Of a stretch of DNA of 42,476 nt, positions 1,325 through 18,260 are shown piece by piece. The translations under genes were made by a program, and so were the position numbers. The DNA is from a virus, in the IMG/VR virus record IMGVR_UViG_3300036770_004850, positions 1-42,476 of that record, one strand, 5' to 3'. The stretch's first letter is position 1. Every line of letters begins with the position of its first letter. The notes beneath the pieces are model-generated. The model had not been told where the DNA came from. It did not search any database and saw nothing but the letters and a program-made list of their open reading frames with translations.

Positions 1325-1511
1325 TCTTCAAATTCTGGTAGTAATTGTGTTCACCATTGGCGCGTTCGTGCCAAAGATCGAGGAGGTTTAGCATGCGTTC
1401 ACGCATCAACGCTTCCGATTTGCGGATCAGTCGTCTCGCGTCCGTTTCGGTCAACCCCGGTATCTTGGATTCAAACCAGATTCGACCGATGTCATCATCG
1501 TTCAATTTCAT
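1308..1511 (-). CDS. Hypothetical protein, 67 aa
   Basis: A 67-residue frame starts at ATG 1511, whose first base is also the last base of the stop of the upstream gene, and overlaps the next gene by 17 bp. The sequence (MKLNDDDIGRIWFESKIPG, then TETDARRLIRKSEALMRERM) resembles short phage proteins that begin with a D/E-rich helix followed by a basic helix. I cannot name the family. Reading-frame continuity, the overlaps and the codon use match its neighbours, so I treat it as coding. Confidence 0.65.
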   Translation of the reverse strand: MKLNDDDIGRIWFESKIPGLTETDARRLIRKSEALMRERMLNLLDLWHERANGEHNYYQNLKNVLNK

Positions 1512-1921
1512 TACAATACCCCCGTGTATGCTGTTAGATGACTAAATGGTGTGATCGGTTTACCGACACTCAAATTGTACCTATTCCTTCTTTTTGCATT
1601 TATCATTGCTCGGTGTCTTTCGCGATATGCAGCTTGTTTCTCCTTCTCGGTCATTGGTTTTGGTTTTTTGATGTCTTTCGTGTTTGGCGCCGGTTTAATC
1701 CCGTACACCGGTACCCAATCACCACTTTTGCTTTCGGGCCTACGCCATCCGCAAATATAAACTTCGTTCTCATTTCGCCAGAGCGTCAAATATGCGTTTA
1801 CGTTGCGTTTAGCAATCCCGATTTCTTCAGCCAACTCCATCGCCGTTAACCCCTCTACGTTCGCCTTCAACAAACGTAGACCGAGATAATACGGCGGCTG
1901 AGCATTGCGCATTCTAGGCAT
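1511..1921 (-). CDS. Helix-turn-helix protein, probable DNA-binding regulator
   Basis: This 136-residue basic protein has an N-terminal winged-helix-like segment. The part LTAMELAEEIGIAKRNVNAY (about residues 25-44) fits a helix-turn-helix of the MarR/GntR type used in phage regulators. A Lys/Arg-rich C-terminal half follows (KKPKPMTEKEKQAAYRERHR and RRNRYNL), plausible for DNA or RNA contact. It sits directly downstream of the DatZ-like gene with an 8-bp overlap, at the boundary between nucleotide metabolism and the small accessory genes. It might regulate phage or host transcription. That role is inference; only the HTH pattern is visible. Confidence 0.65.
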   Translation of the reverse strand: MPRMRNAQPPYYLGLRLLKANVEGLTAMELAEEIGIAKRNVNAYLTLWRNENEVYICGWRRPESKSGDWVPVYGIKPAPNTKDIKKPKPMTEKEKQAAYRERHRAMINAKRRNRYNLSVGKPITPFSHLTAYTGVL

Positions 1922-2462
1922 CTATCACTTCCTTTGCTATCTCTTGTACTCTATCCCAGTCGTATTCAGGATAACCAAGCGCTGCTAGTTTGGTTTGTTC
2001 CCGTATCGAATTACTGAGTATGTCTTTTACCGCCATGGCATGTTTACCCATACCCTCGACCGCCAAGAATTCAACGGCTTCGATAAGGTCGGAAATCTTG
2101 ACTATCGTGAGAACTACCGGGTAATTCTTCTCGATAAATTGATGCAGATTCTTGTACTGGTCGTCTACTGAGTATTCGATCGATTTGATTACATCCGCAT
2201 TGCCGGTCACCCTGTAGATACCGGCTTTCGTCGGCGTCGCGATGTCGCCCATGATCACCTCGGGGAGATCATGGATCAATGCCCATTCATTGACATAGGC
2301 AAGTTGAGTCTCCGGTAACCCAATTCGCATTGACAATTCGTTAGCGATCAGATTCACCTTGTACATATGTTCCGCGATCGTCTGTTCCCTCGCCACCCGT
2401 ACGATCTGCCACCGTTTTACATGTCCCGCCCTCAGCTTTTGTCTGAGTGTTAGTTTATTCAT
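1914..2462 (-). CDS. datZ: HD-domain dATP triphosphohydrolase, DatZ-like
   Basis: The frame can be extended upstream, but the ATG at 2462 (MNKLTLRQKLRAGHVKRWQI, 182 residues) matches the length and N-terminus of YfbR/DatZ-type HD hydrolases. Visible catalytic residues are R17-W18, H32 in IAEHMYKV, H64-D65 in LIHDLPEV, E68 and probably D125 in KISDLIEA. Isoleucine 20 and proline 77 fall where the S-2L phage DatZ, as I recall its structure, uses Ile and Pro to exclude purines bearing a 2-amino group. DatZ strips triphosphate from dATP so that adenine is not incorporated. PurZ and MazZ genes lie just upstream in the same operon, which favours DatZ over a generic 5'-deoxynucleotidase. Activity here is inferred. 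Confidence 0.85.
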   Translation of the reverse strand: MNKLTLRQKLRAGHVKRWQIVRVAREQTIAEHMYKVNLIANELSMRIGLPETQLAYVNEWALIHDLPEVIMGDIATPTKAGIYRVTGNADVIKSIEYSVDDQYKNLHQFIEKNYPVVLTIVKISDLIEAVEFLAVEGMGKHAMAVKDILSNSIREQTKLAALGYPEYDWDRVQEIAKEVIDA

Positions 2463-2763
2463 TTTCTTTAACAAAAGTGCCGTCTTCCGTGAGGTGCCCC
2501 TTCCTGTCCTTAATCTCATTATATGCCCTATACAAACACCTTGTCATGTCTAGATCTCTGATGGCACAATAATTAATCATGCACACGAGCACATCGCCAA
2601 TCGCATCTTCAATGGCGTCTCGGTCGCCTTTCAATTCGGCATCCGCGAGTTCACCCATCTCGGATATTGCCTTCATAATTTGGGTATGTGGCTTTGCATT
2701 TTTAATAATGCCACGATCCTCGCTCCACCCAAGCACCAACAATTCAGCCTCGTTCCAATTCAT
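2455..2763 (-). CDS. MazG-like nucleotide pyrophosphohydrolase
   Basis: This 102-residue protein has the all-alpha NTP pyrophosphohydrolase signature: E35-M-G-E38 in ISEMGELADAE, then E52-D-A-I-G-D57, whose acidic residues bind Mg2+ in MazG and dUTPase-2 type enzymes. Such enzymes hydrolyse (d)NTPs to monophosphate and pyrophosphate. It overlaps the DatZ-like gene by 8 bp and the upstream gene by ATGA. It is a different branch from the DUF550-type MazZ encoded two genes upstream, so the phage carries two MazG-fold enzymes in one cluster. Its substrate cannot be read from sequence. A role in the Z-nucleotide pool or in ppGpp or dNTP control is possible. Confidence 0.8.
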   Translation of the reverse strand: MNWNEAELLVLGWSEDRGIIKNAKPHTQIMKAISEMGELADAELKGDRDAIEDAIGDVLVCMINYCAIRDLDMTRCLYRAYNEIKDRKGHLTEDGTFVKENE

Positions 2764-2963
2764 ATTTCACCCCCTTCACTCTCGACTGCTGCATTGTTAA
2801 GGATTTCATACGCCATTGCTTCGTATTCTTCCCAAATTGCCTCTTCCTCGTCATCTTCATAATCATCGACATCGGGGAATCCCCCCGGGTCGAACATCCC
2901 ATTATTGTTGACTATGACCCAATCGGCCAACTCACGCAGTGTCATCCCGGAAAAGGTTTTCAT
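2760..2963 (-). CDS. Very acidic hypothetical protein, 67 aa
   Basis: The 67-residue product overlaps both neighbours through ATGA junctions and lies between the two MazG-fold genes. It begins MKTFSGMTLRELADWVI and continues into a strongly acidic stretch (VDDYEDDEEEAIWEEYE). I count about 19 Asp/Glu against 2 basic residues. The charge distribution is reminiscent of DNA-mimic anti-restriction proteins or of acidic partner proteins, but nothing beyond composition supports that. The family is not recognised. Confidence 0.7.
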   Translation of the reverse strand: MKTFSGMTLRELADWVIVNNNGMFDPGGFPDVDDYEDDEEEAIWEEYEAMAYEILNNAAVESEGGEI

Positions 2964-3385
2964 AGCGCAGACATCCCAAGTGCCAGAATTATGAAAATCA
3001 CCACGCCGACCACGAAGGAGATGAACCAGACAGATACATCGGGATCAGCCTTCCCGCGAATTGGCTCCGACTCGGGTACGCCATCGTAGAGCTTGGACTG
3101 ATCCAAGTGCTGAAGAGTCCCGGTGTCCGTGATCCGCCAAGTTCGAGCCCGATTCACAGCCATTTTCTCGCGGATTGCCTCACCGAGGTCGATATCGTGC
3201 ATATGCGCCAAGTCGAACAACATGATCGCAATATCGGCGTATTCACCCGGAGACGTTGGATCTCGCACCAACTCCCCGACTTCCTCGAATAGTTTAAGGA
3301 GTGCTGACGAGGGTGTCCGGTCCGGGAATACCGAGTCGGCCCAATCAACAATGTTGTCGGTCAGATCTTTGATCTCTTCAGACAC
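2960..3385 (-). CDS. mazZ: MazZ-like dGTP/dATP pyrophosphohydrolase with C-terminal membrane segment
   Basis: Residues 1-95 match the DUF550-type branch of MazG enzymes, in which MazZ of Z-genome phages falls. The metal motif is E34-E35-x2-E38 followed by E48-Y-A-D51, then LFDLAHMHDIDL and KMAVNRARTW. MazZ makes dGMP from dGTP (and cleaves dATP), supplying the PurZ substrate. Its gene overlaps purZ by 8 bp. Unusually, after a short linker the last 24 residues (118-141) form a hydrophobic segment (FISFVVGVVIFIILALG) that looks like a single membrane helix. That tail is not part of the enzyme fold, and I do not recall it in characterised MazZ proteins. Enzyme class is confident; membrane anchoring is inference. 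Confidence 0.85.
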   Translation of the reverse strand: MSEEIKDLTDNIVDWADSVFPDRTPSSALLKLFEEVGELVRDPTSPGEYADIAIMLFDLAHMHDIDLGEAIREKMAVNRARTWRITDTGTLQHLDQSKLYDGVPESEPIRGKADPDVSVWFISFVVGVVIFIILALGMSAL

Positions 3386-4427
3386 CGGTCAATACCTCCA
3401 CAACATCGTTAACGGTGGGGCCCTTACCGATCCATCGGACCCGGGCACCAGACATGATGTTGATCCGATTAATCAGCTTCGCCGCGTCATAATCCTTCAT
3501 ATAGTTGACGAAATTCAAAAAGATGAAATCGACACCATTCATCCGCACCGCTTCGGTGATCTGCTCCATCGAGAAGGTGAAAATGCGGCGGGGCAATTTA
3601 GTGACCGTCGTCAATTCCGTAGTCTGCCCGATCGCTTCAAACGTCGTCTCTTCCTGGTCCGGGTAATGTGGACCACTCCACCCTACTTGATTACCCTGTT
3701 CATCATACCGGTTAGCAACACGGATAGGGTAGGTGCGAGCGGTGCCATAAACATTGACACGGGCAAATTTATCGCCAGCAGGGATACCACAATCAGCGAG
3801 CGTTTGGTGTGCCGAAACATCACGTGATGTGCAATAAGGATAAAACCCATGGTACATCGACAAGCTGTGGCCCTGGGCACCCTCAACTTGGATCTCGCGA
3901 CCCTCGTCAAGCGCCTTGGCGTACTGTTGAGGGTTAACCACTTCTACCTTCTCGAACACTGGGAATCGATCGAGAATCGCCCCCGCTGTGTTCATATCGT
4001 TAGGGTCGCGACGGATTCGCTGGATCGCAGCAGCACCGACACCCTTCTTGGTCGACCCGATCTTGGTCATCGGACCAGCTTCTTCATCCCGGTGCCGTTG
4101 CTCGATAATCGCAGCGTTAGAATGCACAAGGATGCGGCACCCATCGAGCAAATCGCTGCATTCACCAATCTCTTTTTCCAGGTTCACTGGGTCGATGATT
4201 GATCCGGGACCAATCAAGATCTGCCGCAGATTGTTCGATACAACACCATTGGCGAGCATGGTGTGCACGAATTTTCGCCCCTCAGCATTGACGTAGGTGT
4301 GCCCCGCATTGGCTGCCCATGCGGTCACCAAAGTGTCGGGTTGATTCTGCTCAGCGAGACAGCCAGCTAGCAACCCCTTGCCGGTCGACCCAAATTGCAG
4401 ATCCATGATCAAGTTGATTTTGCGCAT
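3378..4427 (-). CDS. purZ: PurZ, 2-aminoadenylosuccinate synthetase-like
   Basis: This 349-residue protein is a short adenylosuccinate-synthetase homologue; bacterial PurA is about 430 residues. The P-loop region reads DLQFGSTGKGLLAG. Ser14 stands where PurA has its catalytic Asp in QWGDEGKGK, the hallmark substitution of phage PurZ. The catalytic His is kept (H43 in NAGHTYV), as are GSTKKGVGAAAIQRIRRD, VEGAQGHSLSMYHGFYPY and an Arg-containing YGTARTYPIRV loop. PurZ condenses dGMP with aspartate to give the precursor that host PurB turns into dZMP. AGAGGA lies just upstream of the ATG. It begins the compact cluster with mazZ and datZ. The assignment is strong on motif and context; biochemistry is inferred. 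Confidence 0.93.
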   Translation of the reverse strand: MRKINLIMDLQFGSTGKGLLAGCLAEQNQPDTLVTAWAANAGHTYVNAEGRKFVHTMLANGVVSNNLRQILIGPGSIIDPVNLEKEIGECSDLLDGCRILVHSNAAIIEQRHRDEEAGPMTKIGSTKKGVGAAAIQRIRRDPNDMNTAGAILDRFPVFEKVEVVNPQQYAKALDEGREIQVEGAQGHSLSMYHGFYPYCTSRDVSAHQTLADCGIPAGDKFARVNVYGTARTYPIRVANRYDEQGNQVGWSGPHYPDQEETTFEAIGQTTELTTVTKLPRRIFTFSMEQITEAVRMNGVDFIFLNFVNYMKDYDAAKLINRINIMSGARVRWIGKGPTVNDVVEVLTGV

Positions 4428-4452
4428 ATATCCTCTTTAAATGAAAACCCAT

Positions 4453-4458
4453 ATTCTA
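4453..4458 (-). promoter_or_regulatory. Candidate extended -10 promoter element upstream of purZ
   Basis: Read on the minus strand, the 36-bp gap before purZ contains TGATAGAAT, an extended -10 (TGn-TAGAAT), 25 bp before the start codon. No convincing -35 is visible. TAGAAT with an upstream TG also occurs in the candidate promoters at 28970 and 40092, which supports it as a phage promoter element. Confidence 0.45.
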
Positions 4459-4463
4459 TCACA

Positions 4464-4715
4464 TCACTGACCGCGATGGGAGATGTCTGATTCCCATTGG
4501 CTTACAAGATGATCAAATCTACCATTGCCGATTATCACATTTTTGTCGAAGATGTCGTATTGCGCTATTATGATCTCTCCTTTCTTGTGGTTAATTAGCC
4601 TAAATGCCTCAGACGCTCGGTCTGATCCCCCGGCTATATACCCTTTCGATATAGCCCAGTCCATGAATTCTTTTCTCTTGTAGGCTTTGATTGACTTACG
4701 CTTCGATTTAGTCAT
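4464..4715 (-). CDS. Hypothetical basic protein, 83 aa
   Basis: The frame opens slightly further upstream, but the ATG at 4715 (MTKSKRKSIKAYKRKEF) has a fitting AGAGGA six bases ahead, so I use it. The N-terminus is strongly basic. The middle (FMDWAISKGYIAGGSDRASE) and the C-terminus (GNGRFDHLVSQWESDI) match no family I know. It overlaps the dCMP deaminase gene by 8 bp and precedes purZ across a 36-bp gap that may hold a promoter. A nucleic-acid-binding role is possible from charge alone. Confidence 0.65.
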   Translation of the reverse strand: MTKSKRKSIKAYKRKEFMDWAISKGYIAGGSDRASEAFRLINHKKGEIIIAQYDIFDKNVIIGNGRFDHLVSQWESDISHRGQ

Positions 4716-5121
4716 TTGCGATCCTCTCACAAACAATTCCGCCCTTATTCAGGAATTGAATACCATCATCATTTCTGTAAATATCCCGATAATAAACTTT
4801 GTTTATTTTCGCACCCAAAATCCGCTTAGCACATTCAATACAAGGGGCTGTCGTGACGAACATATCAGCTCCCACGCTGGATGTCGTACTTCTAACGATT
4901 TTGTCCAACGCGTTTTGCTCCGCATGGATCACTTCAGGTTTCGTTTTGTTCCATTCATCTTCGCAATCATTATCCCACCCAGTCGGTGTGCCATTGTAGC
5001 CAAGTGCAATAATGGTGTCGTCTTTCACCACGACACACCCCACTTTACGTCTTTCTGCATAGCTTAATTCAGCAAAGACGTCCGCCACCCGCATATAAGT
5101 ATCGATGTACTTTTGCTTCAT
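4708..5121 (-). CDS. Deoxycytidylate (dCMP) deaminase
   Basis: The 137-residue protein carries the complete zinc-dependent deaminase signature: H66-A-E68 in VIHAEQNAL, with Glu68 as the proton shuttle, and C94-x2-C97 in TTAPCIECAK. The upstream strand LGYNGTPTGWDNDC and the YNG motif are typical of dCMP deaminases (ComEB/Dcd type). The enzyme converts dCMP to dUMP, feeding thymidylate synthesis. No thymidylate synthase or dUTPase is seen in this window, so the host enzyme would complete the path. Its start overlaps the stop of the small gene upstream in ATGA. It stands next to the Z-nucleotide genes, as expected for a nucleotide-pool module. Confidence 0.93.
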   Translation of the reverse strand: MKQKYIDTYMRVADVFAELSYAERRKVGCVVVKDDTIIALGYNGTPTGWDNDCEDEWNKTKPEVIHAEQNALDKIVRSTTSSVGADMFVTTAPCIECAKRILGAKINKVYYRDIYRNDDGIQFLNKGGIVCERIAND

Positions 5122-5252
5122 AATAATGCCTCACCAACTGATCTTTTGGATTCTTTGTATTTAGACTCCCGCACGTTGGGATTCAAATACATCTTTCCTT
5201 TGATCTCGTACATCAAAAAAGGCCAATTAGGCCTTCTCTTGACTTCGATCAT
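5118..5252 (-). CDS. Small hypothetical protein, 44 aa
   Basis: A 44-codon frame fits exactly between the polymerase and dCMP deaminase genes, sharing ATGA overlaps with both (ATG at 5252, TGA at 5118-5120). It begins MIEVKRRPNWPFLMYEIKGK and is basic. The tandem ATGA junctions are the main evidence that it is translated, since its length alone proves nothing. A terminator-like hairpin lies inside its 5' part. No family is recognised. Confidence 0.6.
   Translation of the reverse strand: MIEVKRRPNWPFLMYEIKGKMYLNPNVRESKYKESKRSVGEALL
5215..5235 (-). terminator. Candidate intrinsic terminator after the polymerase gene
   Basis: On the minus strand a 6-bp stem AAGGCC/GGCCTT with a 5-base loop is followed directly by a T run (TTTTTT overlapping the stem end). 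It begins about 14 bp downstream of the polymerase stop and lies within the 44-codon gene. It could attenuate read-through from the replication genes into the nucleotide genes. The stem is short, so efficiency is uncertain. Confidence 0.55.
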
Positions 5253-7084
5253 TTGCTCGCTTCCCACCAATTTGCGCCGCATCCTTGGTCCGTCCTTACT
5301 GGTACTCTAAATTTAATGGGGGTGCTGATTCCATCGAATGTGGTCACGATTCGACTGATATTTTCTTTGATATCCGGTCGACCTTCCGGCACATTGCAAT
5401 CAAATTCATCGTGCACGTTCAGCAGCAACCGCGCACCCTCACCCTCCGAGCGCAGATAATCGTGCAGTTCGATCAATTTGACCTTCAACGCGTCGGCGGC
5501 CGAGCCTTGGAAAATCAAGCCCCCTGCTTTGTGTGTGAATTGCCCACCCGGGAATCTGATGTGGCGACCCATCACAGTGCGCACATACCCGCGCGATTTC
5601 GCTATACTTGAGGCATTCCGCAGCAGATCCTGGACACCTGGGATAGCGCTGTGGTATTTATTGAACACCTCAATCGCTTGGTCACCCGGCTTGAGCCACT
5701 GTTTCTTTCCACTCTCGTCGGTTTCCACCGTATATGGTAGCCCCATTTCCGCTGCTAGCTTCCCCTGTCCCATCCCAAACACAAGGCCAAGATTAATCTG
5801 CTTTGCATTCGCATCCCCCGCGAATCGGGGGGACCGAGGTAAACCGGTGAGATCTGCCGCCAATTTGTGGAAATCCGTGTCCGGATTGTCCGAGTACATC
5901 TTCAAAATCCGCTCATCATTCACGTAGTGCGCGAACACCCGGAAGTCCATCTGCGCCCAGTCATTACATACCCACTCGGACCGTGAATCGTCGGGTATAA
6001 ACAATGAACGCACTACCGACGCGATATCTTCGTCCCGTTTGTGGATCTGCTGCAGCGCTGGTGAATTCACGGACAATCGACCCGTGCCCGTACCTAGATC
6101 ATTATCCGATTTCGTCTGGTTGAAATTCGCATGGATCACCCCATCATGGTGATGCCCCAGTAGGTGACCTTTCAGGAATGTGTCCCTGGTCTTGATCAGT
6201 TTGCGAAGTTTCAGAATGAGCGCCGCTGCTGGATCCCGCATCGATCGCAGCGCTGCAGCGTCGATGCTCGGAGCCCCTGCCGGTGTGGTGCTGACGACCG
6301 TACCATCACGCACCACCCAATTGCCGTTGTGGTCGCGCTTAGGCTTAAACAATTCTTTGATCGAATTGGATGGGTTGGGGTTCACTTCGAAACCGGCGAG
6401 CTGGTTTAGTTCAACCTGTGCTACCCTCGATTTCTTATCGATGTCGTAAACCGCTTCCTCCGCTCTTTCGACATCGATCCGGACACCACCATATTCCATG
6501 TCGACCATTACCGGCAATAAGCGTCGCTCAAGCTCCGCTACCTCGCTTATGTTCTGCCGCTCAATCTCCTTGGACTGCCACTGCCAAAGATCAAGGGTCA
6601 CCCGGGTGTCCTGTTTAGCATATCGACCAGCCAGTGAAGCTGGTGCCCTCGGCAGGTTCGCGATCTGCGCATTCTTGGTGGGCCGCCCACCAAACAACTC
6701 AGCGAGTTCCTGCCAGATGTCACTATCTTTACCGATTTTGAGATATTTCTTGCCCAGCGAATCGAGGTCGTACGACATCAAATGTTCATCGATTAACGCT
6801 GCTCTAATCATCGTGTCATCCACCCGATCACGCGGGAAAATGATCCCAGATTCGCGGCACATATGCCAATCAAATTTAGAGTTGTGGCAAATGATCAATT
6901 TACACTTAGGGATTTCATCCTTCAAGAAATCCAGAGCCCCCGAGGTGCGTCTGATATCCCAATACCAGTCGTTACCATCGGGGGCTGAGATCGCCACTCC
7001 AAACACCTTGTCCGACCACCATTTAAGGCCTGTAGTCTCGGTGTCCAGCGCAATGAACGGATAGTCGGACAGTCTTGGAAACAT
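5249..7084 (-). CDS. dpoZ: Family A DNA polymerase with 3'-5' exonuclease, DpoZ-like
   Basis: This 611-residue replicative polymerase has an N-terminal proofreading domain: Exo I D14-T-E16 in LDTETTGL, Exo II N68-x3-D72, Exo III Y155-x3-D159. The polymerase domain shows motif A DWAQMDFR (D375; D380 where the family usually has Glu), motif B with K428 in KQINLGLVFG, and motif C H558-D559-E560. In motif B, Leu432 and Phe436 occupy the positions of the usual Phe/Tyr762 and Tyr766 (E. coli Pol I numbering). Clustering with purZ, mazZ and datZ marks it as a DpoZ candidate, a family reported to favour diaminopurine over adenine. That preference is inferred from context. No clear Shine-Dalgarno precedes it; coupling to the upstream gene six bases away is likely. 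Confidence 0.92.
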   Translation of the reverse strand: MFPRLSDYPFIALDTETTGLKWWSDKVFGVAISAPDGNDWYWDIRRTSGALDFLKDEIPKCKLIICHNSKFDWHMCRESGIIFPRDRVDDTMIRAALIDEHLMSYDLDSLGKKYLKIGKDSDIWQELAELFGGRPTKNAQIANLPRAPASLAGRYAKQDTRVTLDLWQWQSKEIERQNISEVAELERRLLPVMVDMEYGGVRIDVERAEEAVYDIDKKSRVAQVELNQLAGFEVNPNPSNSIKELFKPKRDHNGNWVVRDGTVVSTTPAGAPSIDAAALRSMRDPAAALILKLRKLIKTRDTFLKGHLLGHHHDGVIHANFNQTKSDNDLGTGTGRLSVNSPALQQIHKRDEDIASVVRSLFIPDDSRSEWVCNDWAQMDFRVFAHYVNDERILKMYSDNPDTDFHKLAADLTGLPRSPRFAGDANAKQINLGLVFGMGQGKLAAEMGLPYTVETDESGKKQWLKPGDQAIEVFNKYHSAIPGVQDLLRNASSIAKSRGYVRTVMGRHIRFPGGQFTHKAGGLIFQGSAADALKVKLIELHDYLRSEGEGARLLLNVHDEFDCNVPEGRPDIKENISRIVTTFDGISTPIKFRVPVRTDQGCGANWWEASK

Positions 7085-7090
7085 GGCGAT

Positions 7091-7330
7091 TTAGAATGGG
7101 ACGTCTTCGTCGATTACGTTTGCATCAGCCTCGCGAACGTAGGTGCTATCTTCCTTGCGTTGGAAACTCAACGAAAAGAATTTCCCATTAGCACCTTCTT
7201 TGATCCAGGCACCGATCCAGTATTCCACACCATCAATAATACACTGTCCACGATGGTCGGGATGATTGGGCTTCAGCTTCCGATCATTGCGATTCAGAGT
7301 GCCGGAATTGTTACGCTTCTCATATGCCAT
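7091..7330 (-). CDS. Small replication-region protein with SSB-like acidic tail
   Basis: This 79-residue protein begins MAYEKRNNSGTLNRNDRK and contains YWIGAWIKEGANGKFFSLSF, a pattern I know from small conserved phage proteins. It ends in NVIDEDVPF, which closely resembles the acidic C-terminal tip of bacterial SSB (DDDIPF type) that recruits replication proteins. It is encoded between the helicase (11-bp overlap) and the DNA polymerase (6-bp gap), a location suited to a single-strand-binding or polymerase-accessory role. The body is shorter than a full OB-fold SSB. The function is therefore a hypothesis resting on tail and position. Confidence 0.75.
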   Translation of the reverse strand: MAYEKRNNSGTLNRNDRKLKPNHPDHRGQCIIDGVEYWIGAWIKEGANGKFFSLSFQRKEDSTYVREADANVIDEDVPF

Positions 7331-8741
7331 AATTCATATCCCCTTCAAGGATTTCTAAAGTCTGTCTTGCTCGGGTGACACCAACATACCAAACGCGAGC
7401 TTCGGCGTCTGGATTCTTGTCCATGTCATTTAAAGTCTTCATTGTTAATCCGGTGTGCAACACTACATGGTCGGCTTCTCTTCCTTTCGATGCGTGGATG
7501 GTGGAAAGTCTGATATTCGGTTCTGTTTCCAGATCCGCTTCGCGATAAAAATCAATCAATGTCGGTGGGATCACCAAAGATCTAATGAACCCGCGCTTTA
7601 ACATCGGTGTGAATTCTTTGACATCGATCTCGTTTCTGGTCCGATCGTCAGCTGAGTTATAAATTTTAGTCAATTCAGCCGCAGTGATAGGCTCACCTGA
7701 CTGCATCTTCTTGAACGCCCTGATCGCATTGGCGATCTTCGAATTGAACAACCCCGGCATACCTCCTTCGTTACGATAGGGGATCCGACGTCTGATCAAT
7801 TCGTCTTCCACCTCTTTTCGGGTCACATAATTACGGCACAACACCAATACGTCATCCTTGGTGGATTTGTATTTAGACGGCTCGAAATACGAGGTGCGGA
7901 TTAAAGAACCCATTTCGTCACGCGGTTTGTACTCTTTAATGACTCTGTTCTCTATCGTATCCGTGATTTGCATCGCCTTTTTGTGGATTAGGCGCGGGAC
8001 TCTCCAGGACTGGCTGAGTATCATTCTATCAGAGTCGTGCCTGTCCTCGAATTGCTGCATTCCGTGCGTGTTCGCGCCAGACCATTCATAAATCGCTTGG
8101 TCGTCATCCCCGGCGATGTGAATTTCCTTAACCCGGCTGTATTGCGCCATCCTCTCGATCGCTGTCCACTGCAAATTCGAAAGATCTTGCGCCTCGTCAA
8201 TAAAAATCACCGACGCTCCATGGTCGCAAGGATCATTGACATACCTGAGCAGCATGTCATTGAAATCAATGTACCCGTTTTGCTTTTTAAAGTCTTCGTA
8301 CGACTCGCAAAAAAATTGAAATTCAGCCCAATTCCCCGGTCGATCCGATTCATAATATTCCTCGTGCAGTTTAGATCTGCGGTTGACACATTTGGAATAT
8401 AAATACAGATACTTGTCCCCAAGTTCCATCTGCTCCCCGGTGTCGTTGCTCATCCCACGAAACACGAAACCGATCTTGTCACCGAACTTCTTCAATTTCG
8501 TTGTGTCGACCACCGATGGTGCCGTACACCCAGTCAATTTAAACATCAACGAGTGGATCGTCGAAATTCGGTCCGATTTAACTAACCCAAGACGAGACAA
8601 AGCTTCACTGGCGGCTGCCTTAGTGAACGACAGAAAGCTGATTTCCTTTGGGTCATACCTCTCCCTAGCTTCACTCACACGACGAAGCATTTCGGTGGTC
8701 TTGCCACACCCAGGGGGACCATATACGGAAAATGTTTTCAT
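7320..8741 (-). CDS. UvrD/PcrA-like superfamily 1 DNA helicase
   Basis: A longer open frame runs upstream, but the ATG at 8741 starts MKTFSVYGPPGCGKTTEML, placing Walker A (GPPGCGKTT, residues 8-16) at the usual position and leaving AGAGAA upstream. The 473-residue protein has helicase motif Ia (FLSFTKAAA), motif II FIDEAQDL, motif III AGDDDQAIYEWSGA, motif IV around LSQSWRVP, motif V STIHASKGREADHVVL and motif VI VGVTRARQTL. It would unwind DNA 3'-5' at phage replication forks or in recombination. It overlaps the small SSB-tailed gene downstream by 11 bp. The 73-bp gap ahead of it holds a strong hairpin. Confidence 0.92.
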   Translation of the reverse strand: MKTFSVYGPPGCGKTTEMLRRVSEARERYDPKEISFLSFTKAAASEALSRLGLVKSDRISTIHSLMFKLTGCTAPSVVDTTKLKKFGDKIGFVFRGMSNDTGEQMELGDKYLYLYSKCVNRRSKLHEEYYESDRPGNWAEFQFFCESYEDFKKQNGYIDFNDMLLRYVNDPCDHGASVIFIDEAQDLSNLQWTAIERMAQYSRVKEIHIAGDDDQAIYEWSGANTHGMQQFEDRHDSDRMILSQSWRVPRLIHKKAMQITDTIENRVIKEYKPRDEMGSLIRTSYFEPSKYKSTKDDVLVLCRNYVTRKEVEDELIRRRIPYRNEGGMPGLFNSKIANAIRAFKKMQSGEPITAAELTKIYNSADDRTRNEIDVKEFTPMLKRGFIRSLVIPPTLIDFYREADLETEPNIRLSTIHASKGREADHVVLHTGLTMKTLNDMDKNPDAEARVWYVGVTRARQTLEILEGDMNYGI

Positions 8742-8773
8742 ATATTCTCTAATCGGTGTTCGTGGGCGGGGGC

Positions 8774-8804
8774 GGGGGCTGCCGCCACTGGGACGACAGC
8801 CCCC
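8774..8804. other. GC-rich hairpin between genes
   Basis: An 8-bp perfect inverted repeat (GGGGGCTG / CAGCCCCC) with a 15-base loop lies between the stop at 8815 and the helicase start at 8741. No T run follows on the minus strand, so it is not a standard intrinsic terminator. It could be an RNA-stability or processing structure. I see no other signal in this 73-bp gap. Confidence 0.55.
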
Positions 8805-8814
8805 TAAACCCGCA

Positions 8815-9549
8815 TCAATACTCGGATTCTGCCGCCGCATCGACCTTGCGATCGATCGAGACTGCGCCCTCACGGATTGCATTGTACAGGTTTTCGGCCC
8901 TGCTGTACAGTTCCTTGCTCGGGAACCCAGCAGCAGCAACAGTCAGGTTGAAATAATCCTGATTCTTGCTGTTCTTCTCGGATGTAGTGCCAAGACGATA
9001 TACGCGGCTAAAAGAATCGCCACCATTCATTCGAATGAGGCTGTTCAGCTTGCGAGATACCTTCATCTTCGACCGGCTCATGGAGACCACAATCTCCTCA
9101 ACCTTGTCGCCCGACACTGCGAGGCAAAAATGCTGCGCCGTATCGGTGATATCGCACTTGTCACCATCCTCAAGTGCTTCTCGTGCGTCCTCTGCTTCCG
9201 CTTCGCTCCCGAAAGCACCACGGAAACCACCGCCGTCGTTGCGCTTCTTCCAGATCAACCATTCCTTTTTGTAATAAACCGGAACGATAAACAAAGAATC
9301 GCCGTATAACTGGCGGGTCACATTGTTGTACATCATCCCTTCTTCACAACCCTCGATGTAGCTGGGGTCGGACTTCTTGCGGCAAGGCGAGAGGTCCTGC
9401 ACCAACTCAAGGCGAGGGATGATCAGATCATTGGCACCTACGTTCTCGGATCCACGATTACCAGCGTTACCCTTCAAAAAATCGGGGATTTCGTCCGACA
9501 TCATCAAAGAAGACTGTTGAACGACTGCTACTTGTTGACTCTTAGCCAT
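8815..9549 (-). CDS. Conserved phage replication-region protein
   Basis: The 244-residue protein starts at an ATG with AAGGAAG seven bases ahead. The segment LIIPRLELVQDLSPCRKKSD, then a YIEGCEEGM stretch and PVYYKKEWLIWKKR, identify a family I know from replication/recombination clusters of many siphoviruses. Some members have been labelled as putative single-strand-binding or recombination factors. I see no catalytic motif. It has a mixed alpha/beta body with a disordered N-terminus and C-terminus. Position between helicases and the coiled-coil protein supports a DNA metabolism role, but the biochemical function is unassigned. Confidence 0.75.
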   Translation of the reverse strand: MAKSQQVAVVQQSSLMMSDEIPDFLKGNAGNRGSENVGANDLIIPRLELVQDLSPCRKKSDPSYIEGCEEGMMYNNVTRQLYGDSLFIVPVYYKKEWLIWKKRNDGGGFRGAFGSEAEAEDAREALEDGDKCDITDTAQHFCLAVSGDKVEEIVVSMSRSKMKVSRKLNSLIRMNGGDSFSRVYRLGTTSEKNSKNQDYFNLTVAAAGFPSKELYSRAENLYNAIREGAVSIDRKVDAAAESEY

Positions 9550-9594
9550 GATTAACTTCCTTCAGATCTAGCCCAGACGCAGGGACCACGCGAT

Positions 9595-10044
9595 TCAGCG
9601 CTTCGTGATAGAAGCACGTGTGAATGGGGTTATCTTGATCAGATCCTCGGGAATTTCTTCACCCGACCTGATCATCGATTTAACTACTGCCTTCAAAGTC
9701 GAGGCGTTGATGGTCTCGGTAATGATGCTCGATTTGCCGATATCATTGAAGAATTGGTGCACTCGTTCCCGATTGTCGGCATTGACACGAACATACATAT
9801 CGGAGGTCAGACTAACGCGACCGATCCCGTCCACTTTGACGTTATCGATGCCCATATCTTCCATCTTTTTCGGGACTAGATTGAGCCGCAGGAAATCATA
9901 TTCCTTGTTGATCTTGGTCAACTCGCTCTCAAGTTCCTCTTTTCTCTTTGATAATTCATCCATCGCACGAATTGTGTCAATGGTTGAAGTATTTTCGTAT
10001 TTATTTTCAAGTGATTGATTCTCTTCTGCAGTCATTCTTGACAC
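9595..10044 (-). CDS. Coiled-coil phage protein with conserved VDGIGRVSL core
   Basis: This 149-residue protein has a charged N-terminal coiled coil (about residues 25-55, KRKEELESELTKINKEYDF). A small domain with DNVKVDGIGRVSLTSDMYV and a C-terminal helix (INASTLKAVVKSMIRSG) follow. This architecture recurs in replication regions of tailed phages as a protein of unknown function. It starts two bases after the stop of the upstream gene and is followed by a 45-bp gap. No enzymatic motif is seen. A structural adaptor role is possible from the coiled coil. Confidence 0.75.
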   Translation of the reverse strand: MSRMTAEENQSLENKYENTSTIDTIRAMDELSKRKEELESELTKINKEYDFLRLNLVPKKMEDMGIDNVKVDGIGRVSLTSDMYVRVNADNRERVHQFFNDIGKSSIITETINASTLKAVVKSMIRSGEEIPEDLIKITPFTRASITKR

Positions 10045-10046
10045 CT

Positions 10047-10373
10047 TTAAAATTTCTTGATAGACACCACCAAATGTTGGTAAAGCCTATCGCGGTTGCT
10101 CCACCTGAGAATGTTCACTGTGTCGGTGATCTCCCGCACTATCATGAACACTGCGGCGCTGACTACCGGTGAACCACTGATCACCAAATAATCATCTACC
10201 GGGTGGAATTTCTTTAATTTCGTCCTGATTTCTTCAATCAGTTTATCATTGTTGAGGCTATTCTTCATGGGGCTGAAATCACCCCTCGTCAAAAAGATAA
10301 CCTCACCAAACTCTTCCGCTGGAATATAGTTCAAATTGGGGTTTTCTTGGGTTATGTATACTTTACGGTCCAT
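10047..10373 (-). CDS. Conserved phage hypothetical protein, 108 aa
   Basis: The protein opens with a strand (KVYITQEN), then a segment (IPAEEFGEVIFLTRGDFSP) and DDYLVISGSPVVSAAVFMIV, ending in NILRWSNRDRLYQHLVV. I recall the same order in short phage proteins encoded near replication genes (type I / PAEEFG / DYLVISG / NILRW), whose function is unknown to me. A good sigma70-like promoter lies immediately upstream at 10403-10431, so this gene may begin a sub-operon leading into the helicase and polymerase genes. Confidence 0.75.
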   Translation of the reverse strand: MDRKVYITQENPNLNYIPAEEFGEVIFLTRGDFSPMKNSLNNDKLIEEIRTKLKKFHPVDDYLVISGSPVVSAAVFMIVREITDTVNILRWSNRDRLYQHLVVSIKKF

Positions 10374-10402
10374 AGGATTCTATCCTCTATCAAAAAATCC
10401 AT

Positions 10403-10431
10403 AGTGTACCACAGACCGGGATACGGGTCAA
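10403..10431 (-). promoter_or_regulatory. Candidate sigma70 promoter (TTGACC-17-TACACT)
   Basis: On the minus strand TTGACC is followed after 17 bp by TACACT, with TGG immediately ahead forming an extended -10. The -35 overlaps the TGA stop of the SNF2 helicase gene. The predicted start lies about 25 bp before the 10373 start codon. The arrangement repeats that at 28970-28999, where a TTGACA overlaps a stop codon. Confidence 0.65.
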
Positions 10432-12188
10432 TTTCCCGGCTTCCCATAGATCTTGTCTTTGAGATCGTCGATACTGCCACGAACGAACTCGGATACGTCC
10501 TTTTTCTGGGTCAGTGCCTCCAGGATATGCTCGTCTACTGTGCTTTCCGCTATTATGTCGATGATTAGTGTTCCATTTTTCTTGTCTGGCCCAAACGCTC
10601 GCTCTTCCGATTGTTCCCGGTCGATGTAATTAAATGTGTTGGAAAAGTATATTTCGATCTCCGCTGCCGACATTGTGAGACCCATACCACCAGTCGCCGC
10701 GTTTCCTACCAAGAATCTCGCTTTCTTGCCTTGGAAAAGTACATTGACATTGATGTCGCGTTGAGTCTCGTCGATCTCGCCGTGCAATTCGACCACCTGA
10801 TCGTCGCCGTACTTCATCCGCAGCGCTTTAGCCACCAACTGTATTTCTTCCTTGTAGGCGCACCACACAATAGTCGGGCCCGGGTCATATTCTTCAGTGC
10901 AAAAGATCAATTCTTGCAATTTCGGATTGTCGCCCTCGATAAACTCTCGGTAATATTTCGGTCCCTTTTCTTCTCGGTCTTCTTCAGCAACAGCGTACGA
11001 GATGATTCCGCCCGTGATTTCCTGTAACCTGAGCATCTTCTCAAGTGTGTTCTTTATCATTATCGACTTGTTATCAGTCTCTGCTTTCTTCTGATTTTTC
11101 ACCTGATCATATAATCGCCGTTGTTCTTTGTTGAGCGTCACCTCTCGCTTCACATATACTTTTGGCGGTGCATCCTTGAACACCTCATCTTTTCGCACCT
11201 GGAAGACGAACGGTTCGATTATCTCGGTCAATTCCTCCAGGTTATTGTACCCGATGATTTGCTTATCTTCATACCCACCCATCACTGCGTAACGATTCCG
11301 GAACGAATAGAAATCCCCCAGTCCAATGATGTTCGGATCTAGGAATTCGAACTGCATGAACACATCCATCGGACCATTGGCGATCGGAGTGCCGGTCATC
11401 GCGATCCTGGTTTCAGCGAGTTTCCCAAGATTCACACAATTCTGAGACCGAATCGCTGCGTGGTTTTTGATTTTCGACGATTCATCAACTGCCATCACCG
11501 CTTTAGTAGACGACATCAAGAAACGTTCAGCATATCGATACGCGGATCCTGCTGCTAATGATTCAACGCCGACGATCAAACATTTGAAATCATGTTTTGA
11601 ATAAATCCACTCATCAAACTGCTTTGGTTTCGAGGTGTCTAACAACAATATATCTACATCGAATGGCGCATGGATTGCGAACTCCCGCACCCAATTCTTT
11701 CTGATAGACTTTGGACACACAATCAACATCTTGTCCGCGAATCCTTGCATCCGCATCGCACAAGAAAGATCAATAACGACTTTCGTTTTGCCAGTGCGCA
11801 TATCCATGAAAAGAGCTATGGCTTTGTTACCATACACCTTGTTCAACGCCTCCATTTGCTTAGCGCGCGGCTTAGTCTTAAACTCGTACCAAGTAGGGAA
11901 TTTCGGCGAGGTGTCGGCAGCTTTATTTCTGTCTTGTCTGTACTTTTTAAGCGCAGTTTCAATATAACTCAACGCGTCCTCTGTATATTCAGTTTTACTA
12001 CGGGTGAAACTCTGGTGGATATACTCCACATTGCTGCGGATAGCGGGCGCGCTCCAATATTTATTGCGGGTTTCCCATCTGCGGTTGGGGATATTCTTCG
12101 CTAATTCATTCATTGAAAATGGGCACATTATGATGAAACGCCCCTTGTACTTGTCATAATGAACTTTGGGCTTTGGTAGTGCTATCAT
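10428..12188 (-). CDS. SNF2-family helicase/ATPase
   Basis: I start it at ATG 12188 (MIALPKPKVHYDKYKGRF), which has GGAG nine bases ahead and follows the upstream stop by one base. That gives 586 residues. The N-terminus (RWETRNKYWSAPAI) resembles the HARP-like domain of phage SNF2 proteins. The motor shows motif I DMRTGKT (about 129-135), motif II VDESSKIKN in place of DEAH, motif III MTGTPIANG, motif V GGMGLTMSAA and motif VI around EQSEERAFGPDKKNG. Such proteins translocate on dsDNA and accompany phage primases and polymerases. Located directly after the primase-like gene, it is probably part of the replisome. Confidence 0.9.
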   Translation of the reverse strand: MIALPKPKVHYDKYKGRFIIMCPFSMNELAKNIPNRRWETRNKYWSAPAIRSNVEYIHQSFTRSKTEYTEDALSYIETALKKYRQDRNKAADTSPKFPTWYEFKTKPRAKQMEALNKVYGNKAIALFMDMRTGKTKVVIDLSCAMRMQGFADKMLIVCPKSIRKNWVREFAIHAPFDVDILLLDTSKPKQFDEWIYSKHDFKCLIVGVESLAAGSAYRYAERFLMSSTKAVMAVDESSKIKNHAAIRSQNCVNLGKLAETRIAMTGTPIANGPMDVFMQFEFLDPNIIGLGDFYSFRNRYAVMGGYEDKQIIGYNNLEELTEIIEPFVFQVRKDEVFKDAPPKVYVKREVTLNKEQRRLYDQVKNQKKAETDNKSIMIKNTLEKMLRLQEITGGIISYAVAEEDREEKGPKYYREFIEGDNPKLQELIFCTEEYDPGPTIVWCAYKEEIQLVAKALRMKYGDDQVVELHGEIDETQRDINVNVLFQGKKARFLVGNAATGGMGLTMSAAEIEIYFSNTFNYIDREQSEERAFGPDKKNGTLIIDIIAESTVDEHILEALTQKKDVSEFVRGSIDDLKDKIYGKPGN

Positions 12189-12189
12189 C

Positions 12190-13755
12190 TCAATACTCCG
12201 GGGTAAAGTCAGGTGCGTCAAACTTGATATGTGCTAAACGTTCGTAATCGACGAACCAAACCGATATCACCTGCTGTTTCACTCGTACTCGATCAAAATT
12301 CACACCCATATCTTTGTGTGCTCGGTGCCACAAACTCTTATTCCTGGGTATATCAGTCCGAGTTCTGCGCAGATAATCTTCATAGTCGATCGCTCGGAAC
12401 ATGATCACCCGGCGACCCTGGAGAATCTGCACCACTGGCATACCACGCAGAAGAGACTCGCGATCTTTGATGTCGGTGCCGTCCGAGGTGAGATCCGCTT
12501 TCCGCAGGAACTCATCCAGTCGAATCGCCAGATTTCCGTTGGGGCTGGATTCCGCTGGTGCCTCTTCAATCTCGAGCTTCGTCATCAAATCCGCTAGGAT
12601 CTCGTCCGTCCACTGGGCACTCTTAATCTGCGACGGCAACACCACATGCAACCGCTCCATCGCCTTCAATCGTACCTGCTTAAAATCCATCAATTCGTCT
12701 GTCGTCATTGTGATCGGGACACCATTCATCTTGAGTTCCCACATGACGGGCTCAGTATTCATATACTTGACCAGATCACTAAATACCGGTAGCTTATTGT
12801 CCGCGGTCAATAAATCGTATTCGGATTCAGAGATTCCGTATTTAACTTTTCTACAAGCTTCTCGATCACACCAATCCTTCCACGGCTCTTTCTTGCATAA
12901 ATACCCGTAGGTCTTGCGGGCTGCACTCTTGATCGTTTTATCGGCTTCTTGGAACGGCAGGGGCTCTGCAAAAAATTGCCCCTGCATTGAGTGAGACATC
13001 TCGCGTGCACCCTCAGGATTCCGCTTGCGGTTGTAGATTGTGATATGGAACAATGCTTCATTTCTCGACCCTTCCGATATGCCCTCTTTAAGTGCCTTTC
13101 GAATGCATGGTGGTGCCTCGGTGTGCTCAGACCCAAAATAATCCTCTAACTGCTCCTGGGTTATCGACCTCGTTTCGGCGTTCGTCAGGAATAGATCCAG
13201 GGGGCTGGGTTTACCGTTCTCCAGCGCGTATCGATCAGTTTCGTACGCATTGAAATATGGTAAATTAATCCAATTGCCGAGCGCTTTATTACCATAGCTG
13301 TCGAGTACTAGCTTGGTTTGCTTCGGAAAGACACAATCAGATCCCTCAAGGCTGAGATCCGACATCCAGCGAGTGAGGATCGTCTTCAACATGTCCGCCC
13401 TGAGAGGCTCAGAACCGAACACGTAAAGGTGTGCACCGCCCGATTTGGAGCGACACACGACCAGAGGCAATTCCTGGGATTTGACCCTGTTCTCGATCGC
13501 CACCAAATCGAGATCGAAATCCTGTCCATGGTTATCGATATCAATCGCACCCCAATAGCACATCCCATCATCGCGGATTGGGACAATACCGATACCCTTC
13601 TTACCCTCTAAATGCGCTATGATCTCTTTCTCAGTATATGCTTTCTTTATGGTCTGCATCGTCCTCCCTTTTGGACGATACGGGTCAAATTCACCGAAAG
13701 ATCTACTGTTACCCCGAAACAGGGCCATAAACCTCTTTACCTGCATCAACTCCAT
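12190..13755 (-). CDS. Primase-polymerase-like (AEP/TOTE-type) protein
   Basis: I choose ATG 13755 (MELMQVKRFMALFRGNSRSFG) because GAGGTGA lies just ahead; a GTG two codons upstream is less well placed. The 521-residue protein has the archaeo-eukaryotic primase core: D72-x-D74 in WGAIDIDNHG, then S103-K-S-G-G-A-H109 in CRSKSGGAHLYVF, and a downstream PKQTK. This is the pattern of TOTE-type primases found beside SNF2 helicases in phages. The C-terminal half (about 300-521) is uncharacterised. It is the first gene after the promoter region at 13797 and would prime replication. It coexists with a family A polymerase, whereas cyanophage S-2L, as I recall, relies on a PrimPol. Confidence 0.85.
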   Translation of the reverse strand: MELMQVKRFMALFRGNSRSFGEFDPYRPKGRTMQTIKKAYTEKEIIAHLEGKKGIGIVPIRDDGMCYWGAIDIDNHGQDFDLDLVAIENRVKSQELPLVVCRSKSGGAHLYVFGSEPLRADMLKTILTRWMSDLSLEGSDCVFPKQTKLVLDSYGNKALGNWINLPYFNAYETDRYALENGKPSPLDLFLTNAETRSITQEQLEDYFGSEHTEAPPCIRKALKEGISEGSRNEALFHITIYNRKRNPEGAREMSHSMQGQFFAEPLPFQEADKTIKSAARKTYGYLCKKEPWKDWCDREACRKVKYGISESEYDLLTADNKLPVFSDLVKYMNTEPVMWELKMNGVPITMTTDELMDFKQVRLKAMERLHVVLPSQIKSAQWTDEILADLMTKLEIEEAPAESSPNGNLAIRLDEFLRKADLTSDGTDIKDRESLLRGMPVVQILQGRRVIMFRAIDYEDYLRRTRTDIPRNKSLWHRAHKDMGVNFDRVRVKQQVISVWFVDYERLAHIKFDAPDFTPEY

Positions 13756-13796
13756 GGTCACCTCGTGTGGTTGACTATACTCTATAGGGGGTGCAT

Positions 13797-14635: not shown

Positions 14636-15036
14636 TTCGCAGCTACTCCTTTAGACTTCTCGTAGGTCCGCAAACCGCCAATACCTAACATGCCGCTTAG
14701 CACGACCCACAACAGGTCAACATCTACAGTTGGTGGGGCGGGCCAACCCTGTACGGCGGCAATCCAGGTCAACAACGGCTGGAGAAACACCGAGTAGGCG
14801 AAGCCTGCTACGCCCACCCAACCCGCCCCCGGACGCCATCCCGCCACCCAGATGCTCGGGTGTGCAGCCTCTTTAGCGTTTATTTCAAGTTGAGCGATAA
14901 CTTGTTTTAATTCCCCCTGCATCGCCATAGCAAGGAATTGGGCTTCTGCTTCTCGTTTCTTTTCCGGATCGGGCACGAAACGATCAAGAAGCGTTTTTCC
15001 GACGTCCAGCAGGGGGGCGAGGAATAGGGGGTTCAT
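14632..15036 (-). CDS. Holin, 3-TM family
   Basis: This 134-residue protein matches the phage/GTA 3-transmembrane holin family. It has a charged N-terminal coil (DPEKKREAEAQFLAMAMQGE), then the hallmark HPSIWVAGWRPGAGWVG leading into a first membrane segment (about 72-93). A second hydrophobic stretch lies around VDLLWVVLSGMLGIGG, with a basic C-terminus (RTYEKSKGVAAK). It would form membrane lesions that let the M15 endolysin reach the wall. It overlaps both neighbours through ATGA. I see no separate Rz/Rz1 spanin pair in the window. Confidence 0.88.
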   Translation of the reverse strand: MNPLFLAPLLDVGKTLLDRFVPDPEKKREAEAQFLAMAMQGELKQVIAQLEINAKEAAHPSIWVAGWRPGAGWVGVAGFAYSVFLQPLLTWIAAVQGWPAPPTVDVDLLWVVLSGMLGIGGLRTYEKSKGVAAK

Positions 15037-18000: not shown

Positions 18001-18260
18001 TGAAGTGCGGCTATTCTAGACTTTCGGTCTTCTTCATAAATTTGAATTTCTGCTAACAACAGATTCAACTCGAATGCTACGGCATCTATGTCTGCTTGGA
18101 CTGGGACTAATTGGTTCTCTAATACTGTTATTTCTGCTAGTAGCTTGGAACGTTCTACCTCTAGGGCGGCTATTTTAGATGCTTTAATTTGTGAGCCGAC
18201 ATCGACTTCGATTCGGTATTTACCTGCACCATAATTACCAATTATTTTTGCCTTACCCAT
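15033..18260 (-). CDS. Large tail protein (tail tip/fibre), 1075 aa
   Basis: The N-terminus (MGKAKIIGNYGAGKYRIEVD) is a short beta element followed by long helical coiled-coil segments to about residue 560. A conserved central part follows. The stretches GNVATIEIPGEPSRPINIA, LPGWQKFKPTYRRGTITSI and VPIVYLDCNAFAFKVGDD recall a family of siphovirus tail proteins encoded after the tape measure. From about 740 the sequence becomes Gly/Thr/Asn-rich beta structure, as in receptor-binding fibres. It probably forms part of the tail tip and contacts the host. It overlaps the LamG-containing protein by one base and the holin by ATGA. The exact role is inferred from size and place. Confidence 0.75.
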   Translation of the reverse strand: MGKAKIIGNYGAGKYRIEVDVGSQIKASKIAALEVERSKLLAEITVLENQLVPVQADIDAVAFELNLLLAEIQIYEEDRKSRIAALQSTLDGVIAAVDAQNDIVQQAGANAFLLQTFLNQKKVEYDALVVQRDILLQNIQNLEEQIAIFESALELDKTTWDKAEEDIDTYESIVTDSVLYVQNAPVNLKSAISEALGYPVGVDIDEIVELISSKSLALKFSQFNTNQFALEADIQDAATNYIYELYGLGTPANLTALIEVYNGTTQASIVADSLINDFTDPEYTVLSSLCDIPLLATLNDIRSGVISDVEVVDAFIDDLNNYLSTNEKEFYANSGLLYKCAFSIFENRLRIVNHLEALAQLKGYGLPAAIETTFGTGTGVAIYPEVFAPGLSNMSDAKVAYSTNFLYLRTFYKELIDLKTKIDFNIDTLNATFLEYDISKPLLTDKESEITTFRNDILTPAQNEYKDALEIIKTETFFLNQGYATIQVFQQDIALIQIEKLPQNLSDRLLAIEVESARLSEVYAFIFNALSYLKLKSLSLLKEIVRINNIPAIYDTDAWCVDYTENATGNVATIEIPGEPSRPINIAAGGRAPSLTDGKLRSRSFMTGPQAYFNAAILPGWQKFKPTYRRGTITSINTENNTANLTLYDDRSTAANFSGVGLVINQTNTLSNVPIVYLDCNAFAFKVGDDCVIEFQGQNWNNPKLIGFVNNPRPCTKFTVTFNITGTGGTIVGTIIQEVYFGQSTSPVSVVFTDPTAAVKFTNYSGSLKDIVIENVTQNIVIGVEFISGVGGSTGIAVQIVGTFGFSTIFNGGSFYVDARVIESASAFPGLVDVEGTTLPLAPNGPATTYPFFNIPGTVEIRGILSFFSASNPPNELGTGGSFSTFTTPNTFYQPIGTDGTQVDRPYYILKRQVYNGPSTLSIVNEAINAVNQNPSNPSQTYSGVNAATYYSFAVDASTTNAAGRYITYIVEQQNGYSLNIIGTTPDDPDTEIDEANASLARVGGGFSYVQASGFPGSPPGSIQLKYDPTGASNFENGTVISYYNTGVIVKGTSSTATESPTYSLLYVREGSSLP

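Follow-up and report, generated by a model that had tools for sequence, protein, structure and literature searches.

A candidate 2-aminoadenine gene cluster with accessory variations in an uncultured tailed phage

Does the uncultured virus represented by IMG/VR record IMGVR_UViG_3300036770_004850 replace the adenine of its DNA with 2-aminoadenine (Z)? The question is raised by a run of genes near one end of this contig, which is classed as linear and was analyzed over its whole length of 42,476 bases (hereafter, the window). An initial annotation had proposed a complete Z-genome gene set in one operon, naming four genes, and all four are indeed present on the minus strand. We consider it highly probable that they form a Z-cluster of the MazZ-1/DpoZ type in a tailed phage, and that this cluster would yield 2-aminoadenine DNA. 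The four-gene match is not a product of chance. The direct basis for this reading comprises the identities of the genes, their active-site residues (nearly all of the published ones are kept), their phylogenetic place, and their order. The genes are as follows:

5249 to 7084, minus strand: DpoZ, family A DNA polymerase with a 3'-5' exonuclease, phiVC8-like clade, 611 amino acids
3378 to 4427, minus strand: PurZ, N6-succino-2-amino-2'-deoxyadenylate synthase, 349 amino acids
2960 to 3385, minus strand: MazZ (MazZ-1, DUF550 type), dGTP pyrophosphohydrolase, 141 amino acids
1914 to 2462, minus strand: DatZ, HD-domain dATP triphosphohydrolase, 182 amino acids

The PurZ protein passes the NCBI curated PurZ model NF038379 (359.2 bits; cut-off 300), and its best solved relatives are PurZ structures (PDB 7odx, 1.5e-83). 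As had been noticed initially, Ser14 occupies the position of the catalytic Asp of PurA. When the residues described for S-2L (PMC8342488) are mapped onto the window protein, those of the dGMP pocket and the TTVT loop are retained (N40, A41, T126, R140, Q185, R236, V237, T273-T276, and R280), as is the stacking residue F306, and N308 is found as in phiVC8 where S-2L has Gln. An alternative is that this relative of PurA is a normal adenylosuccinate synthetase (PurA) or belongs to PurZ0, with a role in purine supply or in the other Z pathway, and its match to PF00709 does exceed the cut-off, as in any PurA relative. However, the score against the PurA model TIGR00184 is only 123 bits, far below the cut-off of 395.55, and the motif GSTGK differs from both GDEGK of PurA and GSEAK of PurZ0. 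A tree of 38 rows that included PurA, PurZ0, and PurZ proteins recovered PurA and PurZ0 each as one strongly supported group, and a 99/97 branch separates both from the window PurZ, S-2L, phiVC8, and SH-Ab 15497, leaving the placing within the PurZ side open. The grouping with ordinary PurA that would have spoken against the proposal was therefore not seen, and the place of the window protein outside the PurZ0 group, together with its motif, likewise sets it apart from the PurZ0 pathway (DutZ/DmtZ). Given the curated models, the motif, and the tree, we reject an assignment to PurA or PurZ0 as very improbable.

The MazZ protein matches PF04447, which is the Pfam entry of DUF550, and the S-2L MazZ structure (PDB 7ody, 1.7e-18). 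The latter is also the top Foldseek match of its AlphaFold model, at 41% identity. In this model, which includes two C-terminal strands, block-mean pLDDT (predicted local distance difference test) values of the core are 89-97, whereas the helix at residues 115-140 is modeled at lower confidence. Mapping from the same S-2L reference shows that the metal ligands (E34, E35, E38, E48, and D51) are kept, as are the guanine-specificity residues I54 and D58, along with R81 (I56, D60, and R83 in S-2L numbering).

For DatZ, matches were obtained to the dATP triphosphohydrolase family phrog_7076 (3e-29) and to the S-2L DatZ structure 6zpa (2.5e-18). Its start is likely the ATG at 2462 rather than an upstream ATG at 2519, from which the frame is also open. 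Every residue checked against S-2L (PMC8065100) is kept, namely R17, W18, I20, Q27, A30, H32, H64, D65, E68, G72, D73, P77, K79, E96, K122, and D125, such that the test set composed of the metal ligands, R19, K81, K116, and I22 (S-2L numbering) is present in full. Residue I22, which corresponds to I20 in the window, has been described as the one that excludes a 2-amino group (PMC8065100).

The polymerase passes the NCBI DpoZ_1 model NF038380 with 844 bits (cut-off 500). Its best solved relative is PDB 7pbk (2.8e-140), which we take to be the phiVC8 DpoZ, the name given in the PDB list being DNA polymerase I only. Compared with the phiVC8 residues described in PMC8599892, the exonuclease acids D14, E16, and D72 are kept, L432 and G522 are the equivalents of phiVC8 L455 and G548, and E560 stands where phiVC8 has S583. 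At the steric-gate Tyr position the window protein carries Phe436, and this Tyr to Phe change is the one common to both DpoZ clades (PMC8599892). Based on the characterized homologues, the enzyme is predicted to prefer dZTP (the triphosphate of the Z deoxynucleoside) over dATP.

If the four proteins act as their homologues do, the pathway would be the published one (PMC12884076, PMC8342488, and PMC8065100). MazZ would convert dGTP into dGMP, which PurZ would join to aspartate with ATP or dATP to give N6-succino-2-amino-dAMP (dSMP), and host enzymes would complete the route to dZTP. DatZ would meanwhile remove dATP by converting it into deoxyadenosine, and DpoZ would polymerize selectively, using dZTP over dATP. 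The resulting DNA is expected to contain 2-aminoadenine:T pairs with three hydrogen bonds.

The arrangement of these genes recurs among related viruses. We found relatives of PurZ encoded at 62 IMG/VR loci, and BLAST comparisons revealed the order PurZ-MazZ-DatZ in about 60 of them, most often accompanied by DpoZ and by a replication cassette that they have in common. In nearly all loci that are long enough, DpoZ lies upstream and MazZ and DatZ lie downstream of PurZ (locus L052 lacks a MazZ match). The window has the same purZ-mazZ-datZ order, with two extra open reading frames (ORFs) between mazZ and datZ. Matches to PurZ are also present in 212 GenBank phage records, among them PurZ0 proteins and a small number of distant PurA relatives, and because so many records carry such relatives, the gene set is less exceptional than first implied. 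At the DNA level, the first 20 kb of the contig has no close match among phage records.

The closest relative found is L006 (IMG/VR 3300042468_001294, 52 kb), whose DpoZ, PurZ, MazZ, and TerL are 80%, 71%, 76%, and 88% identical, respectively, to those of the window. It shares the replication cassette, the dCMP deaminase, the small ORF, and the helix-turn-helix-like protein described below, but it lacks the second MazG and the 67-amino-acid ORF, and its MazZ has no hydrophobic tail. Three other Z contigs that were tested have TerL proteins of about 46% identity, and in the remaining ones the match is weak or unseen, where an unseen match may reflect an incomplete contig. Such divergence around a stable replication and Z block fits an exchange of structural genes, and horizontal transfer of Z machinery has also been inferred in a 2026 Nucleic Acids Research paper (PMC12884076). 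The block formed by DpoZ-PurZ-MazZ-DatZ and the replication cassette is thus widespread among uncultured phages with differing packaging genes.

The window represents a distant, well-supported branch of the 2-aminoadenine phages. Acinetobacter phage SH-Ab 15497 and Salmonella phage PMBT28 share its DpoZ-PurZ-MazZ-DatZ order and carry UvrD/PcrA-like and superfamily 2 (SF2) helicases upstream, with PurZ about 49-52% and DpoZ about 50% identical. However, a dGTP_diPhyd_N (DUF5664) domain is joined to the N terminus of their MazZ, whereas the window MazZ lacks DUF5664, ends in a hydrophobic C-terminal helix, and is followed by a separate generic MazG. The single-strand DNA-binding protein (SSB) gene lies between DpoZ and PurZ in these two phages but precedes DpoZ in the window. 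The Z-cluster of cyanophage S-2L (datZ-mazZ-purZ) resembles that of the window in its MazZ-1 type, order, and active-site residues, but it has no DpoZ, and the S-2L polymerase is an unselective PrimPol (PMC8065100). Vibrio phage phiVC8 shares the DpoZ clade (with F436, L432, and G522 kept), DatZ, and a 44% identical PurZ, but it uses MazZ-2 (PMC8342488).

Taken together, the enzyme matches, residues, tree, and gene order lend good support to the predicted Z-DNA, and the cluster is a complete and apparently functional example, with accessory variations, of a type of system that is already well described. Some points nonetheless weigh against this interpretation. Each enzyme activity and the Z content of virions are predicted from characterized homologues. 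No PurB or dZMP kinase was seen among the window proteins scanned. Known Z phages likewise depend on the host for the PurB and dZMP kinase steps. In addition, at a few positions near the base MazZ departs from that of S-2L (I16 to A, N20 to F, A92 to T, M93 to L, and R94 to Q); I16, N20, and A92 have been described as peculiar to S-2L (PMC8342488). One could also propose that the genes function but that substitution is partial, giving mixed A and Z, either through imperfect discrimination by DpoZ or through incomplete conversion of the host pool. Consistent with this, the phiVC8 DpoZ still inserts one to six A residues in a row at physiological dATP (PMC8599892), and S-2L genes expressed in E. 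coli changed about a quarter of plasmid A (PMC8342488). However, DatZ, whose role is dATP removal, is intact at all tested residues, and substitution in the known Z phages is described as complete (PMC12884076). We therefore regard partial substitution as improbable, and 2-aminoadenine is very likely to be found in the virion DNA, as judged by analogy with these phages.

The annotation had further predicted broad resistance to nucleases. For restriction sites that contain A this is a reasonable expectation from work on S-2L, whose DNA is "almost completely resistant" to restriction enzymes (PMC8342488); a later paper states that Z "partially prevents cleavage" (PMC12884076). For the predicted resistance to Cas nucleases requiring A, the literature searched offered no support.

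If Z protects sites containing A, then only palindromes without A should stay under selection. We therefore calculated observed/expected values for six-base palindromes, classed by whether they contain zero, one, two, or three A/T pairs. The values for the window are 0.59 for the GC-only class, which is thus under-represented, and 0.96, 0.90, and 0.96 for the others, which lie near expectation. Those for 21 GC-matched (45-62%), dereplicated Z contigs are 0.41/0.81/0.85/0.95, compared with 0.66/0.65/0.71/0.72 for 30 random viral stretches (permutation p 4e-4 for the difference), where the Z contigs are related to one another, the random stretches are not host-matched, and host background is a serious confounder. 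SH-Ab 15497, PMBT28, phiVC8, and ZP6 agree with the Z-contig pattern. The reservations gathered above must be extended to this confounded test. The GC-only value is also low in lambda (0.19/0.60/0.71/0.82) and P22 (0.33/0.45/0.79/0.84), neither of which is a Z phage, and this class is not avoided in S-2L (0.99), for which Z is proven. A search for TerL-matched non-Z controls provided no clean set, since PurZ is present in 6 of 23 TerL-related contigs and the rest are mostly short. On the values for lambda, P22, and S-2L, we reject palindrome avoidance as proof of Z. The skew is a suggestive lead, spotted after looking rather than predicted on independent data, and once host effects are controlled it may give a sequence-only hint of protected DNA.

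The Z genes are accompanied by others. On the minus strand, the order over positions 1511-7330 is SSB, DpoZ, dCMP deaminase, an ORF of 83-90 amino acids, PurZ, MazZ, a 67-amino-acid ORF, a second MazG, DatZ, and a helix-turn-helix-like protein. From PurZ through the last of these, every start overlaps the preceding stop by a few bases. This fits one transcription unit, so that the proposed operon is plausible, with co-transcription predicted from the sequence. The dCMP deaminase, second MazG, and both small ORFs did not figure in the initial annotation. The neighboring features are as follows:

7320 to 13761, minus strand: replication cassette encoding a UvrD-like helicase, Pam3 gp34-like and gp33-like proteins, a 108-amino-acid protein, an SF2 helicase, and a primase of the archaeo-eukaryotic primase (AEP) type (PHROG and Pfam matches)
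7091 to 7330, minus strand: SSB, 79 amino acids (phrog_18154, 1.2e-13), with a homologue in most related loci, kept near DpoZ
4708 to 5121, minus strand: dCMP deaminase, 137 amino acids (phrog_174, 4.7e-49; PF00383, 1.5e-21)
4464 to 4736, minus strand: small protein upstream of PurZ, 83-90 amino acids, with relatives in L006 and L007
2760 to 2963, minus strand: acidic 67-amino-acid ORF overlapping the MazZ stop and the MazG start
2455 to 2763, minus strand: second MazG-like NTP pyrophosphohydrolase of a common phage family, 102 amino acids (phrog_1992, 2e-30; PF03819)
1511 to 1921, minus strand: protein with a helix-turn-helix-like N terminus (sub-threshold Pfam matches), overlapping the DatZ stop

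The simplest reading of the second MazG is an insertion into the Z-cluster. We lean toward the view that it serves general nucleotide house-cleaning in the phage, came to lie within the operon, and has no part in Z synthesis. Its family is common, with 489 related viral stretches, and among the best 80 of these no PurZ, DatZ, or DpoZ was found within up to 3 kb on each side; two weak MazZ matches proved to be the MazG gene itself. Contigs carrying such relatives gave no PurZ match in any of seven tested, and BLAST found no match to the second MazG in other Z loci. In a BLAST comparison only, it did not align with phiVC8 gp26 (MazZ-2; E = 25), and an assignment to DUF5664 was ruled out for want of a Pfam match. 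However, its start and stop overlap the neighboring genes, and the MazZ of SH-Ab 15497 and PMBT28 includes a second, fused dATP/dGTP domain, which suggests that a second activity may be useful. The DUF5664 domain of SH-Ab 15497 MazZ has reported activity on dATP and dGTP (PMC12884076), and an analogous activity is thus possible for the second MazG.

The MazZ tail of nearly 50 residues ends in a hydrophobic helix within residues 115-140 (window 2960-3120; mean hydropathy 2.86 over 19 residues), and no such tail is present on any other MazZ examined from related loci. From this one sequence, it is a possible membrane anchor. A more elaborate proposal, which we consider unlikely, is that conversion of dGTP to dGMP takes place at the membrane, where this anchor tethers MazZ, and is divided between two MazG enzymes, with the small ORF upstream of PurZ as a further part of Z-DNA synthesis. 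The tail, the second MazG, and this ORF are concrete candidates for steering nucleotide pools.

The small ORF likely encodes 83 amino acids from an ATG at 4715, whereas the ORF list gives 90 from a TTG. Its product matched nothing in PHROG, Pfam, NCBIfam, or PADLOC, and relatives were found only in L006 and L007, upstream of PurZ in both, with none in 50,697 phage records. Because three contigs are too few, we do not call it a Z-cluster component. The 67-amino-acid ORF has no family match and no relative in related loci. A 75% identical copy of the dCMP deaminase occupies the same place in L006. In L006 and L007 a clear relative of the helix-turn-helix-like protein immediately follows DatZ, and this protein also has a 29% match in L111 and one match in a phage isolate.

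Several observations concern the related loci. Downstream of its Z-cluster, L006 encodes a D12-class DNA adenine methyltransferase (12545-13672), an unusual gene for a genome predicted to be free of adenine, and L007 carries a DNA methylase (PF01555, N6/N4 class; 1950-2672) between PurZ and MazZ. A family of proteins with a "KGEEY...DDQLANFKR"-like sequence, for which two members scanned gave no Pfam match, occurs soon after DatZ in L007 (4523-4864), L008 (12173-12877), L013 (10996-11328), L045 (12194-12838), and L080 (2961-3371). PurZ-like genes also occur on L081-L086, contigs binned with metagenome-assembled genomes of diverse bacteria (Verrucomicrobia, Deltaproteobacteria, Gottesmanbacteria, and others). 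These are probably phage contigs; L083 and L084 gave no other match to the Z genes of the window.

No RNA families were found in the window, nor were defense-related families among ten proteins scanned. No host was assigned, because the relatives of both TerL and the capsid are too heterogeneous and no tRNA was found. The order of the replication cassette upstream of the Z genes is kept in most related loci that are long enough, and the remainder of the contig carries lysis, tail (tape measure and baseplate-like), capsid, protease, portal, and terminase genes. A protein of 1075 amino acids (15033-18260) has no PHROG match and only a sub-threshold Pfam match, and its position suggests a tail protein.

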